64,000 nucleotides of DNA from Cryobacterium cryoconiti. Its GTDB lineage: Bacteria > Actinomycetota > Actinomycetes > Actinomycetales > Microbacteriaceae. The translations under genes were made by a program, and so were the position numbers. Below are positions 57,120-63,242 of this stretch, one piece after another. Below the pieces are notes generated by a model that saw nothing but the letters and a program-made list of their open reading frames with translations, was not told the origin of the DNA and ran no database searches. Location: assembly GCF_004403065.1 (NCBI RefSeq), contig NZ_SOHA01000041.1, positions 124,001 through 188,000 of the forward strand. Direction: 5' to 3'. Each line of letters begins with the position of its first letter. Position 1 is the first letter of the stretch.

Positions 57120-58391
57120 TTAGGGGGGTGTCCAGTCCGCACCGTCCACTCCCCAGCACAGCAGCAGCCAGCCCCACTGGCCGAGAATGCAGAGCAGGAC
57201 GACGCCCGTCCGGTACCAGGGATTGCGTGGTTGGGCGATCGCGCCGAGCAGCGGGAACAGCGGCATCAGCAGACGGAACGTGCTCGACTGCGGGAAGAAC
57301 ACGGCCAGCAGGTAGAGGCCGTAGCTGGCCACCCAGAAGCGCAGATCGACGCCGAGCCGCCGCACGGCCGGGAGGAACAAGATCCCCCCGAAGGCCACGA
57401 TCAGGACGACGACGACGACGATGCCGAGCGGTATCCCCAGCCACCAGACCCCGCTCTGGAACCAGGCGGTGAACGGAACGAGCTCCTGGTAGCCGATGTA
57501 CGGCGCCCGCCAGGCCAGCTCGGTGCCGGTGTACGCCGTGACGCTGCCGGTCACGATCCAGGCCACGACCGGCCAGGCCACCCCGACCAGGGCGCTGAAC
57601 CCGGCGACGGATGCCGCCAGCATCCGTTCGCCGAGCGGGAAGGGGTCTCTCGCCCGGGTGAGCCAGCGGTGCACGACGTGCAGACCGAGGGCCAGCGCGA
57701 AGGCCAGGGCACTGGGCCGGGTCAAGCCCATCACGGCGATGACCGGGAACAGCAGCACGTACCGCCGATCGAGCAGCAGGAGCAGCGCGAGGGTGAGCCA
57801 GAACAGGTACATCGACTCGGCGTAGCCGAACTGCAGCACGGGCGACAGCGGAGCCACGCAGAACAACAGCACCGAGAACAGGGCGGCCGACGGGTCCAGC
57901 ACCCGACGCATCAGCCGGAAGAACAGCAGCGCGGTGCCCAGGCTGAACGCGGCCGACACGAACACGGCTGCCACGTCCCACGGCTGGCCGCTGAGGGCCA
58001 TCAGCACCCGCACGGCAGCGGGGAAGCCCGGCATGAACGCCCACGCGTTCTCCGCGATCTGCCCCTCCGCCGTCACCGGCAGCGTGGCTGGGTAGCCGCT
58101 GATCGCGACGATGTTGTACCAGCGGGCATCCCACATGTTCGCGAACGCGGCGTAGCCCGGCGACGCCGCCGTCCACGCGTTGGCGCCCTGCACATTCGCG
58201 AGCAGCAGCACCAACGTCGTCGTGACCACCCGGGATGCCGCCCAGATCACGACGACCCTGGCCCACCAGGGGGTGGCCCGGTAGCCGGCCCGCCAGCGCG
58301 ACGGTCGGACTGCGGGCGGGACGGACGCCGGTGTGGCCCGGCGCACGGGCGGCTGGAGGGGCTTGGCTACCGGACGCTTGCGCTCAGCCAT
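57120..58391 (-). CDS. PIG-V-like mannosyltransferase membrane protein
   Basis: 423 residues with about ten membrane segments after a basic, proline-rich N-terminus. NMWDARWYNIVAISGYP and the following FMPGFPAAVR match the first loop of GPI-mannosyltransferase-2/PIG-V-type GT-C enzymes, where WDARWY holds the catalytic acid. In Actinobacteria such enzymes use polyprenyl-phosphate-mannose for lipoglycans or protein mannosylation. It overlaps dapE by 25 bp, so both are cotranscribed. Acceptor unknown. Confidence 0.75.
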   Translation of the reverse strand: MAERKRPVAKPLQPPVRRATPASVPPAVRPSRWRAGYRATPWWARVVVIWAASRVVTTTLVLLLANVQGANAWTAASPGYAAFANMWDARWYNIVAISGYPATLPVTAEGQIAENAWAFMPGFPAAVRVLMALSGQPWDVAAVFVSAAFSLGTALLFFRLMRRVLDPSAALFSVLLFCVAPLSPVLQFGYAESMYLFWLTLALLLLLDRRYVLLFPVIAVMGLTRPSALAFALALGLHVVHRWLTRARDPFPLGERMLAASVAGFSALVGVAWPVVAWIVTGSVTAYTGTELAWRAPYIGYQELVPFTAWFQSGVWWLGIPLGIVVVVVLIVAFGGILFLPAVRRLGVDLRFWVASYGLYLLAVFFPQSSTFRLLMPLFPLLGAIAQPRNPWYRTGVVLLCILGQWGWLLLCWGVDGADWTPP

Positions 58392-59461
58392 GAGCGGAGC
58401 CCGTCCTCACAGTCCGTGATCTGCGACAGGGCGACCCGCTCGTCGTCGGCGTGGGCCTTGAGCGGGTCGCCGGGGCCGTAGTTGACGGCCGGGATGCCGA
58501 GGGCGGAGAAGCGTGCGACGTCGGTCCAGCCGTATTTGGGTTTGGCCTCGCCGCCGACCGCGGTCAGGAACTGCAGGGCGAGCGGGGCGTCCAGGCCCGG
58601 GCGGGCACCCTCGGCCTGGTCGACGACCGTGATCTCGTACCCCGCGAACAGTTCTTCGAGGTGCTCGACGGCCTGGGCGGAGGTGCTACTGGGCGCGAAG
58701 CGATAGTTGATGTGCACCATGCACTCGTCGGGGATGACGTTGCCGGCGATGCCGCCGCTGATCCCGACGGCGTTGAGGCCCTCACGGTAGACGAGCCCCT
58801 CGACCTCGACCTGGCGCGCCTCGTAGCCGGCCAGGAGGGTGAGGATGGGGGCGACCTTGTGGATGGCGTTCTCGCCCACCCAGCTGCGGGCGGAGTGCGC
58901 GCGCAGTCCGAAGGCGCGCACTTCGATGCGCACATTGCCGTTGCAGCCACCCTCGATCCGGCTGTTGGTCGGCTCGCCGAGGATGGCGAAGTCACCCTCG
59001 AAGAGATCGGGCCGGTTGCGGGCGAGGCGGCCGAGGCCGTTGAGCTCGTCGGCGACCTCCTCGTGGTCGTACCAGATCCAGGTCACGTCGACGCTGGGCG
59101 CGGTGAGCTCGGCGGCGAGCTTCAGTTGCACGGCCACGCCCGCCTTCATGTCGACCGTGCCACGGCCCCAGAGGTACTCGACGCCGTCGATGGTCTCGAA
59201 GCGGGTCGGCAGGTTGCGGTTGACGGGGACCGTGTCGAGGTGGCCGGCGATGATCACGCGCTGGGCCCGGCCGAGGGTGGTGCGGGCCACGACGGTGTCA
59301 CCGTCCCGGATGATCTCGAGGTGCCCGTACCCGGCGAGCGCACGTTCCACGGCGTCGGCGACGGTGGTCTCGTTCCCCGAGACCGACTCGATGTCGCAGA
59401 GCGCACGGGTGAGCTCGATCGAGGTTTGGGAGAGGTCCAGGGTCACGGGGATTTGAGGCAC
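58367..59461 (-). CDS. dapE: Succinyl-diaminopimelate desuccinylase
   Basis: 364 residues, M20 peptidase fold. Metal and catalytic motifs are IAGHLDTVPV, GRGTVDMKAG, YDHEEVADE (catalytic Glu) and GEPTNSRIEGG. It removes succinate from N-succinyl-LL-diaminopimelate in lysine and cell-wall synthesis. GTG at 59461, leaderless. It is divergent from dapD, which acts two steps earlier in the same route. Confidence 0.9.
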   Translation of the reverse strand: MPQIPVTLDLSQTSIELTRALCDIESVSGNETTVADAVERALAGYGHLEIIRDGDTVVARTTLGRAQRVIIAGHLDTVPVNRNLPTRFETIDGVEYLWGRGTVDMKAGVAVQLKLAAELTAPSVDVTWIWYDHEEVADELNGLGRLARNRPDLFEGDFAILGEPTNSRIEGGCNGNVRIEVRAFGLRAHSARSWVGENAIHKVAPILTLLAGYEARQVEVEGLVYREGLNAVGISGGIAGNVIPDECMVHINYRFAPSSTSAQAVEHLEELFAGYEITVVDQAEGARPGLDAPLALQFLTAVGGEAKPKYGWTDVARFSALGIPAVNYGPGDPLKAHADDERVALSQITDCEDGLRSWLSASVR

Positions 59462-59466
59462 TCTAC

Positions 59467-59472
59467 TAATCT
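59467..59472 (+). promoter_or_regulatory. -10 box, leaderless promoter of dapD
   Basis: TAATCT sits six bases before ATG 59479 and overlaps by five bases the -10 box of the divergent dapE. Confidence 0.6.
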
Positions 59473-59473
59473 A
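59468..59473 (-). promoter_or_regulatory. -10 box, leaderless promoter of dapE
   Basis: TAGATT sits six bases before GTG 59461. The shared heptamer TAATCTA contains both -10 boxes. Confidence 0.6.
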
Positions 59474-59478
59474 GAGCC

Positions 59479-60459
59479 ATGATCACCGCCGTGCCCCCGA
59501 CATCCGTTGCCCCCTCGAACGCCTGGGGGTACGGCCTCGCCACCGTCGCCGGAGACGGCACCGTGCTGGATACCTGGTTTCCGGAGCCGCAGCTCGGCCC
59601 ATTGCCGGCCGGCCGCGACCGTTGGATCGTGCCGTCCGAACTCGAGCAGTTCGCCCGGGAGGACCCGCGGCGCGCCGTGCGCCTCGAGGCGGTCACCGTG
59701 GAGATCGACCTCACCGCACCGCCGGCCGGAACCTCGGATGCCTACCTGCGCCTGCACCTGCTCTCGCACTTGCTGGCCCGCCCGAACACCCTCAACCTCG
59801 ACGGCATCTTCGGTCACCTGCCCGCCGTGGTCTGGACCAACGCGGGGCCGATGCTGCCCGCCGATTTCACCCGTCTGCGGCCGTCCCTGCAGCGGCATGG
59901 AATCCAGGCCACCGGGATCGACAAGTTCCCGCCGCTGCTCAACTACGTCACGCCCGACCGTGTGCGGATCGCGGATGCGTCGCGGGTGCGTCTGGGTGCC
60001 CACCTCTCCCCCGGTACGACGGTGATGCACGAGGGCTTTGTGAACTTCAACGCGGGCACGCTGGGCGTCTCAATGGTCGAAGGGCGGATCTCCCAGGGCG
60101 TGGTCGTGGGCGATGGTGCCGACATCGGCGGCGGCGCGTCGATCATGGGCACACTGTCCGGCGGCGGCACCGAACGCGTGTCGATCGGCGAGCGGGCCCT
60201 GCTCGGCGCCAATTCCGGGGTGGGCATCTCGATCGGCGCGGACAGCGTCGTGGAGGCCGGGCTCTACGTGACGGCCGGAACCAAAGTCCTGCTGCCCGGG
60301 CAGCCGCGCACCGCCGACGGGAAGACGGCGTCGGTGAAGGCCGTCGAACTCTCCGGGGTCGCCAACCTGCTGTTCCGTCGCAACTCGGTCTCGGGTGCGG
60401 TTGAAGTGCTGCAGCGCAGCGGCACCGGCATCGTGCTGAACGCCCAGCTGCACGCCTGA
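59479..60459 (+). CDS. dapD: Tetrahydrodipicolinate N-succinyltransferase
   Basis: 326 residues of the actinobacterial DapD type. The N-terminal domain is followed by a left-handed beta helix around [21 protein letters not shown] and [18 protein letters not shown] (quoted in part), with [15 protein letters not shown] late in the helix. It succinylates tetrahydrodipicolinate with succinyl-CoA. Leaderless ATG start. Divergent partner of dapE. Confidence 0.9.
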
Positions 60460-60466
60460 GCAGGGA

Positions 60467-60502
60467 GGCCCCGCCGCCGGAAGTTTTTCCCGCGGCGGGG
60501 CC
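60467..60502 (+). terminator. Hairpin after dapD
   Basis: GGCCCCGCCGC pairs with its complement over a 14-base loop that contains five Ts. It is between dapD and the acylase gene; termination efficiency is doubtful. Confidence 0.5.
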
Positions 60503-60536
60503 GGCCCGGAGTACGCTGCCGTCACAAAGGAGTGAC

Positions 60537-63242
60537 GTGGGAACCGACGCACCGCGCAGCAAACGCCACCGCCGGGTGGGGCCGGCTCTGATCGCGGTCG
60601 CCGTGGTCGTGACCCTGACCCTGGCAGGCATCGGAACCGGAATCTGGACCGTGACCCGCTCCTTCCCCCAGTTCGCGGGTGAGGCACGGCTGCCCGGCCT
60701 GGGCGCCGAGGTCACGGTGTACCGGGACGAGGCGGGCATCCCCCAGATCGTGGCCGACACCGCCGGCGACCTGTTCCGTGCCGAGGGTTACGTGCACGCC
60801 CAGGACCGGTTCTGGGAGATGGATTTCCGGCGGCACGTGACGAGCGGGCGGCTGGCCGAACTCTTCGGGGAGAGCCAGGTGGCCACCGACACCTTCATCC
60901 GCACGCTGGGCTGGCGGGCCGTAGCCGAGCAGGAGGTCGCGTTGCTCGACCCGGTCACCGCCGGCTACTACCAGGCCTATGCGGACGGCGTGAACGCGTA
61001 TCTGGCCACGCACACAGGCCCTGACCTCTCCCTCGAATACGTGGCCCTGGGACTGCAGAACCCCGGCTATACGCCCGAGCCGTGGACTCCGGCCGACTCC
61101 GTGGCCTGGCTCAAGGCGATGGCCTGGGACCTGCGCTCGAACCTTGACGACGAGATCGACCGGGCACTGCTCTCGGGCAGTTACAGTCCCGCGGAAATCG
61201 AGCTGCTGCATCCGTCGTACCCGTTCGCCGCCCACCCGACCATCGTCGACGGGGCCCCGGCCCCGGCCGCCGAGGCCGAGGCCGCACCCGAGGAGACGCA
61301 GCCGGAGACGGCATCCGCCCTCACCGGGCTCGCGGGCACGCCCGCCCAGCCGGCCCTGGCCTCCTCGCTCACGGGGCTGCGAGCCGCACTCGCCGGCGTG
61401 CCCGAGCTTCTCGGCCCGGCCGGTGGGGAAATCGGCTCCAACTCCTGGGTGGTCGCCGGCGAGCACACCGACACCGGTGCGCCGATCCTCGCCAACGATC
61501 CGCACCTCGGCGCGGTGATGCCGTCGGTCTGGTACCAGGTGGGGCTGCGCTGCCGCACCGTGAGCGCGGACTGCCCGTTCGATCTGGCCGGGTACGGCTT
61601 CTCCGGCCTGCCCGGAATCATCATCGGCCACAATGCGAAGATCGCGTGGGGATTCACCAACCTCGGGCCGGATGTCGCAGACCTCTACCTGGAGAAGGTC
61701 ACCGGGGACACGTATGAGTATGACGGGGCGCAGAAGCCCCTGCAGCTGCGCAGCGAGACGATCAGGGTCGCCGGCGGGGACCCGGTGCGGATCGAGATCC
61801 GGGCCACCGAACACGGTCCGATCGTGAGCGGGCTGGGCGGCACCGTCTTCCCGGCGATCGCGAACGAGTACCCGTCGGCGATCGACCTGCCGGCGGCGGA
61901 CGCGCCGGCAGCCGGTGACGCGACGGATGCCGCGGCCGACGCGGGTGCCAGCGGCGCCGCCGCCGAACCCACCGTCTACGCGCTCTCGCTACAGTGGACG
62001 GCCCTGACGCCGGGGCGCACGGCATCCGCCGTCTTCGCGCTCGGAGCGGCGACCGACTGGGCGAGCTTCCGTCAGGCGGCCGAGCTGTTCGATGTGCCGT
62101 CGCAGAACCTCGTCTACGCCGATGTGGACGGCAACATCGGCTACCAGGCGCCGGGGCTGATCCCGATCCGCCGGGCGGGCGACGGCACCGTGCCGGTTCC
62201 CGGCTGGACGAGCGCGTACGGCTGGGACGGCTTCATCCCGTTCGATGCGCTGCCGCAGATTTTCAACCCGCCCCGCGGCTTCATCGTGACGGCGAACAAT
62301 TCCCCGGTCGGCCCGGACTACCCCTACCTGATCACCAAGGACTGGGATCTCGGCTACCGGGCGGCGGAGATCACCCGGCGGCTGCAGGCCCGCATCGACT
62401 CCGGAACCCCCGTGACGACCGCGATGATGAGCGAGATCCAGGGTGACACCTACAACCCGCTGGCGGCGGCGCTGGTGCCCGTGCTGCAGGACATCGAGAC
62501 GACCGGCGCGACCCGGGACGCGCTCGCCCTGTTCGACGGCTGGGACTACCACCTCGACGCCGGCAGCGCCGCCGCCGCGTACTTCAACATCGTCTGGCGC
62601 AACCTGCTCTCGGTCATGTTCGACCAAAAACTCCCGGAGGGCACCGCGTTCACCGGTGGTGACCGTTCCTTCGCCGTTGTGATCGCCCTGCTCGACACCC
62701 CCGAGTCACCGTGGTGGGACAACGACCGGCTCGGCTCCGGCGGCCGCGACAGCATGCTTGAACGTGTGCTCGTCCGGGCCGCGGCCGAGGGCGAGAAGCT
62801 GATGGGTGCGGATGTCGCCGGCTGGGAATGGGGCCGGATCCACACGCTCGAGGTGACGCACTCCAGCTTCGGGGAGTCGGGGATCGCCCCGCTGGAGTGG
62901 CTCTTCAACCGGGGACCGTATGAGGTCGCGGGCGGCTCCAGCGTGATCGACGCCGTCGGCTGGGATGCGACCATCGGCTACACCGTGGACTGGGTGCCGT
63001 CGATGCGGCAGGTGGTGAGCCTGGCCGACTGGGACGACTCGACCTGGCTGAACCTGACCGGAAGCTCGGGACACGCATTCCACCCGAACTACGACGACCA
63101 GACCGTGCTCTGGCAGGAGCACCGCACCCGGCCGTGGCTCTTCTCACTGGCAGCCGTGAAGCAGGCCGCCACCCACACGCTGCTGCTCACCCCGGACGTG
63201 ACGGGGCCGGACCGCGAACACGGCCCGGCCGTCAATCGCTAG
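60537..63242 (+). CDS. Penicillin acylase family Ntn-hydrolase
   Basis: 901 residues. One membrane segment at about 16-38 anchors or exports it. The alpha chain ends near IG, and the beta-chain nucleophile is Ser301 in GSNSWVV, followed by ANDPHLG; autocleavage before Ser301 is expected. Further family blocks are [11 protein letters not shown] and TANNSP. Two insertions rich in Ala (about 240-262 and 455-475) look disordered. GTG at 60537 has AAGGAG four bases upstream. It cleaves an amide, possibly an acyl-homoserine lactone or beta-lactam; substrate unknown. Its stop overlaps the convergent citrate synthase stop by four bases. Confidence 0.85.

Follow-up and report, generated by a model that had tools for sequence, protein, structure and literature searches.

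A symmetric -10 element predicted to act as a shared leaderless promoter of the divergent dapE and dapD genes in Cryobacterium

The intergenic region between dapE and dapD

The window analysed here, a stretch of 64,000 nucleotides from Cryobacterium cryoconiti, contains dapE and dapD, divergent genes of the lysine and cell-wall pathway, both identified by curated models whose cut-offs are exceeded (Table 1). The nearest three named relatives of DapD are from Cryobacterium (93-95% identity). The preliminary description of this DNA had placed 17 bp between the two start codons, and this is indeed the length of the gap (59462-59478), with a start-to-start distance of 18 bp; on the forward strand, the GTG of dapE appears as its reverse complement CAC (59459-59461). 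The heptamer TAATCTA stands exactly in the middle of the gap (5 + 7 + 5 bases). It had been described as holding the -10 hexamers of both genes, each at six bases from its start codon, and the sequence agrees on both counts, with one TANNNT box per strand. The box of dapD, TAATCT, and that of dapE, TAGATT, both begin 12 bp before the respective start codon; on neither side would a leader fit. A TANNNT box about 12 bp before the start is what PMC3160421 describes for leaderless genes of actinobacteria.

Table 1. Features of the dapE-dapD region, in window coordinates, and the second site of the same genome
Feature	Position	Strand	Basis and remarks
dapE, succinyl-diaminopimelate desuccinylase	58367..59461	-	ORF; GTG start 59461-59459; TIGR01900 (dapE-gram_pos), 508.4 bits vs cut-off 304.2
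dapD, tetrahydrodipicolinate N-succinyltransferase	59479..60459	+	ORF; ATG start 59479-59481; TIGR03535 (DapD_actino), 484.2 bits vs cut-off 441.5
Symmetric heptamer TAATCTA, common to both genes	59467..59473	both	TANNNTA on each strand; sequence
Predicted -10 box of dapD, TAATCT	59467..59472	+	Six bases before ATG; sequence, conservation
Predicted -10 box of dapE, TAGATT	59468..59473	-	Six bases before GTG; sequence, conservation
Conserved core CTACTAATCTAGAG	59463..59476	both	Heptamer and flanks towards either start
Predicted transcription start of dapE	59461	-	At the G of GTG; its partner base is -18 of dapD (C)
Predicted transcription start of dapD	59479	+	At the A of ATG; its partner base is -18 of dapE (T)
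Inverted repeat CTCTA-N6-TAGAG	59461..59476	both	Centre 1.5 bp off the heptamer centre
msrA / aldo-keto reductase shared-heptamer site	L083 1501-1523 = contig C44 58579-58601		

The T at -7 (T59472) and the A at -11 (A59468) of dapD are, on the opposite strand, the -11 and -7 bases of dapE. In bidirectional promoters with divergent starts 18 bp apart, according to PMC10268837, -7T and -11A coincide reciprocally in this way, a T at -18 helps, and the arginine that senses -18 is R451 in E. coli; the same reciprocal coincidence is found here, and its bases are invariant in 54 of 54 genus genomes. The class of bidirectional promoters is defined by mapped divergent starts 7-25 bp apart, and the 18 bp of dapE and dapD are predicted from the start codons; 18, 10 and 23 bp are given as the common start distances (PMC12825309), and among published bidirectional promoters the 18-bp arrangement with this coincidence of -7T and -11A is the most frequent one. 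The base at -18, where T is common and not obligatory, is T for dapE and C for dapD because each -18 position pairs with the first base of the other gene's start codon.

A sigma-70-type -35/-10 pair was rejected, none being found in 59300-59650 (0.1 in shuffled sequences), and so was an RNA element, as no Rfam family matched at its gathering score across 58300-60600. The genome encodes a housekeeping sigma factor, which contains an RIPVH stretch. The counterpart of R451 presumably lies in this stretch.

Conservation of the element within Cryobacterium

dapD is present in all 57 genus genomes, and the 17-bp element between dapE and dapD is kept in 54 of them; in the remaining 3 (L103, L104 and L107) the gap is 31 bp. 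In the 54 genomes every position of the heptamer is invariant save 59470 (T in 49, C in 5), and 10 of the 17 columns in the gap show a single base (59463-59469 and 59471-59473). The other four core columns are conserved in 49, 53, 53 and 52 of 54, and the variable columns are 59462, 59477 and 59478. By comparison, none of 125 fourfold-degenerate third positions at invariant residues (73 in DapD, 52 in DapE) is invariant among 56 genomes, and the mean frequency of the major base at such sites is 0.70 in DapD and 0.76 in DapE. The core is therefore under strong constraint, beyond TANNNT alone, and the conservation of its flanks CTAC and AGAG exceeds what a minimal -10 explains.

This extension of the conserved core beyond TANNNT would also suit an operator, in which case a regulator binding to CTCTA-N6-TAGAG would control both genes and the overlap of the boxes would be secondary; elsewhere in the genus, 17-bp sites next to MarR-type genes coincide with longer palindromes (L190, L201). 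However, when the whole genome was searched with the 16-mer CTCTACTAATCTAGAG, allowing up to 3 mismatches, the only site was the element itself, which is not what the operator of a regulon would give. Furthermore, most genus members have an imperfect repeat (with C at 59462 in 32 of 54) yet retain the heptamer, and no regulator gene adjoins among the ORFs listed around dapE and dapD. We rejected the operator or regulon reading, since the 16-mer has no second genomic copy within 3 mismatches, and consider it quite unlikely that the block is conserved chiefly as an operator. A CCCTA-N6-TAGGG form of the inverted repeat occurs in L014, L150, L151 and L154.

The family model of DapE begins at residue 11 and there is an in-frame GTG at residue 6, so that dapE may start further inside (e.g. 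at the GTG at 59446); the minus-strand box would then not be its promoter and only dapD would be leaderless. One genome, L116, fits this, its dapE being out of frame from the GTG of the 17-bp element. On the other hand, of the 54 genus genomes with the element, 53 have a dapE RTG that is in phase and stop-free up to the aligned DapE, despite variable N-termini; this check spans 0-34 codons upstream of the start of the tblastn alignment, which differs among rows. The minus box, in turn, is present in 54 of 54 genomes, and in L104 and L107 it is the one box left in the dapE-side copy of the duplicated element. An inner start is thus very unlikely. The dapE N-terminal stretch of L116 and dapD of L139 (near codon 60) contain frame breaks, either real or due to the assembly; that of L139 is perhaps an assembly error.

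The 31-bp gap of L103, L104 and L107 is 14 bp longer than the usual one and contains the element twice. All three genomes retain an intact copy on the dapD side. In the dapE-side copy TAGATT is retained six bases before the GTG of dapE, and the plus-strand box has become CAATCT, and is therefore lost, in L104 and L107, while it is still TAATCT in L103. In all three, each gene has kept a box of its own at six bases. This is how a duplication followed by specialisation would be expected to look, with the two directions having begun to split. The duplicates speak for a use of both boxes, and also for sharing being dispensable.

Occurrence of the pattern in other places and in other genera

The pattern CAYN5TANNNTAN5RTG has one site in the window and none in 100 dinucleotide shuffles of it. 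The whole genome contains 2 sites, each between the starts of divergent genes, and 25 genus genomes contain 64, as compared to 8 for the form with a 15-bp gap and 13 for that with a 19-bp gap. These 64 sites comprise 25 at dapE/dapD, one in each genome, and 39 elsewhere. Counts for the reversed patterns, which swap TA for AT (31, 51 and 54; forward, summed), are neither a null expectation nor a support. The second site of the genome, CAC-N5-TAGAGTA-N5-ATG, lies between the divergent genes of msrA and an aldo-keto reductase, both with Pfam matches, and the same pair, recognised by its N-terminal sequences, is found at 6 of the 39 non-dap sites, in 6 of the 25 genomes.

Frames of at least 120 codons on both sides are present at 13 of the 39 non-dap sites, versus 2 of 8 and 3 of 13 at the 15-bp and 19-bp controls. 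With controls nearly equal, we rejected the length of the ORFs as a proof that the other 17-bp sites are gene pairs, and most of these sites are only candidates; the excess of 17-bp sites lies in their number, not in this proportion. Pfam matches on both sides were obtained for an NmrA/MarR site (L201) and an EamA/MarR site (L190), and on one side only for L185 and L200. Altogether, shared leaderless -10 boxes seem to form a small class that recurs within the genus, of which dapE/dapD would be the constant member. The 17-bp sites of L190 and L201, and also those of L178, L181 and L206, coincide with long palindromes beside MarR-type regulators or EamA-like transporters; these palindromes are possible operators, overlapping a possible shared -10. 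A relative with a 19-bp gap, CAYACTSATTACTCTAGAACSCATG, recurs in L266, L268 and L277, before a similar long plus-strand gene.

In the wider family, a scan of 249 Microbacteriaceae genomes (78 genus codes), which covered the ACTAAYCTA forms of the pattern only, gave matches in 21 genomes of 7 genus codes. Twenty of the 21 are at dapE/dapD (g1 5/5, g9 2/2, g26 2/2, g51 2/2, g52 5/5 and g54 4/4 of those sampled); besides Cryobacterium (g1), five genus codes have the 17-bp gap in every member sampled (15 genomes). The match in G080 (g25) was rejected as dapD, since its plus frame resembles, by eye, a sugar-phosphate isomerase and its minus frame has 3 codons. In the same family sample, dapD was not matched in 13 of the 249 genomes; ten of the 13 belong to genus codes whose genomes measure about 2 Mb or less. 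Six genomes of g70, g75 and g77 have one TGA inside the DapD match.

Of the 165 loci that we compared, 7 lacked dapE, 1 was not divergent and 8 more were removed as duplicates of genus genomes. The 149 left, among which some duplicates remain (the proteins of L007 and L162 are identical), consist of 67 with the shared heptamer, 3 with the duplicated element, 74 others and 5 without a box pair. A second set contained 44 loci, 3 of them without one or both genes and 2 without a dapD box. In relatives that do not share the heptamer, the pair is usually divergent, and both genes have a TANNNT 5-8 bases ahead of an in-frame start in 74/79 and 35/37 loci of the two sets; these fractions are biased upward, a box having been the criterion by which starts were picked. 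The two boxes are separate in nearly all of these loci, and the gaps range from 19 bp up, being 30-90 bp in 55/74 and 30/35. Overlapping boxes in registers other than the 17-bp one occur in other genera, at three of the smallest gaps: in Leucobacter weissii (L028; gap of 19 bp, TACTGTA), in L221 (gap of 22 bp, start distance 23, ACGATAACCT) and in L053 (gap of 25 bp). Among the loci with both boxes found, none has a gap below 17 bp.

L146 and L157 contain the pattern before dapD and were rejected as shared loci, dapE being 648 and 744 bp away with a box of its own; the minus frames at the pattern sites have 17 and 44 codons. Together with L164 they are g66 relatives, in which 606-744 bp separate the chosen starts and the dapD side retains TAATCT, as would be expected after an insertion.

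A tree of 113 concatenated DapD and DapE rows needs 3 changes for the shared state, and a single clade is not rejected by the AU test (p 0.45; p 0.586 when g66 and Rathayibacter-like rows are added as putative losses). This quick tree took 22 of the 57 genus loci, hand-picked and leaving out L159; 31 of its 109 inner branches are open, L138 (Cryobacterium) is placed away from the other rows of the genus, and the change counts cannot separate gain from loss. We propose that the shared state in the genus and in some neighbouring genera is a contracted, selectively fixed form of the two separate leaderless promoters predicted for most other Microbacteriaceae examined. In the same tree, DapD and DapE of L048, a contig labelled Stenotrophomonas maltophilia, fall among Microbacterium, which is probably due to contamination or a wrong label.

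The start codon of dapE differs between the two kinds of locus: it is GTG in 64 of 67 shared loci versus ATG in 63 of 74 non-shared ones, and in the second set GTG in 3 of 4 versus ATG in 29 of 35. In L092, L094, L166 and L256 the natural start of dapE is ATG. The Fisher p of this preference, 2.6e-24, ignores relatedness and means little because the shared state may be one clade; for this reason, the GTG preference was rejected as an independent test. The choice between ATG and GTG might set the strength of the other gene's promoter and so tune the balance of the pair, a possibility that we regard as doubtful. If it were true, the ATG of dapD would give dapE its favourable -18T, and the GTG of dapE would withhold -18T from dapD.

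Proposed model of the shared promoter

We consider it likely that the element is a symmetric promoter without a recognisable -35, which would serve dapE and dapD as two leaderless mRNAs; the sequence evidence is that of a real, strongly conserved, leaderless bidirectional promoter. RNA polymerase, presumably with the housekeeping sigma factor, would bind TANNNTA in either orientation and initiate at the first nucleotide of the GTG or of the ATG, so that neither mRNA would have a leader and the two starts, on opposite strands, would lie 18 bp apart. Judging from this geometry, the two directions would exclude each other at the moment of binding.

The element resembles the bacterial bidirectional promoters described by Warman, Grainger and colleagues (PMC12825309 and PMC10268837) in the 18-bp distance, the shared -10, the reciprocal -7T/-11A and the position between two divergent genes of one pathway. 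It differs from them in that its starts are predicted from sequence rather than mapped, neither mRNA would have a leader, so that the -18 base of either promoter would come from the other gene's start codon, and conservation has genus depth. With the leaderless genes of Actinobacteria (PMC3160421 and PMC4633059) it has in common the TANNNT about 12 bp before the start and an ATG or GTG at the predicted 5' end, but there one box usually belongs to one gene, whereas here one heptamer would serve two. Other dapE/dapD pairs of Microbacteriaceae and Micrococcales have the same genes, the same orientation and a TANNNT 5-8 bases before each chosen start, but their gaps are longer and the two boxes are apart in nearly all. 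Bidirectional promoters are a known kind, of which the leaderless form, with bases of each start codon also serving in the opposite promoter, is a variant. Among the literature matches listed, none was recognisable, by its title or the start of its abstract, as a paper on a dapE/dapD promoter or on a leaderless bidirectional promoter.

The preliminary description went further, holding that polymerase can occupy only one direction at a time and that competition may thereby balance the two genes. The arrangement on which it built stands: the -10 boxes overlap, both genes have leaderless-type spacing, and the 17-bp gap recurs in 54 of 57 genus genomes and in five further genus codes. Occupancy in one direction at a time agrees with the geometry, and that two polymerases cannot occupy a bidirectional promoter at once is stated in PMC12825309. 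Steric competition could hold dapE and dapD at a set ratio or lower noise, the shared promoter then being a means of regulatory balance. The boxes overlap completely, as they do in 54 of 57 genus genomes, and competition and lower noise have been reported when one direction is strongly active (PMC12825309). However, in the same study, basal transcription from five E. coli bidirectional promoters was too low for competition, which arose, with strong effects, once one direction was raised. Moreover, the duplicated elements relieve the sharing in 3 of 57 genus genomes, so that sharing is not required, and most other genera examined manage without a shared box. We find it unlikely that the shared promoter also balances the two genes by competition.

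The cited work on bidirectional promoters rests on start-site maps and on reporters in E. coli and Salmonella. The dapE/dapD case belongs to an essential pathway, and its promoter has stayed near letter-perfect while synonymous sites turned over; being near-identical across the genus, it lends itself well to tests, in a natural setting, of the way in which one switch is shared by two genes. The locus also has a readable history, which would run from separate to contracted to fixed promoters and then, in three genomes, to a duplicated and partly split element. It offers natural alleles for asking whether a shared -10 is selected for or is the mere floor of a shrinking gap between leaderless genes, a floor that is visible in the 17 bp that form the smallest gap among the loci with both boxes found.
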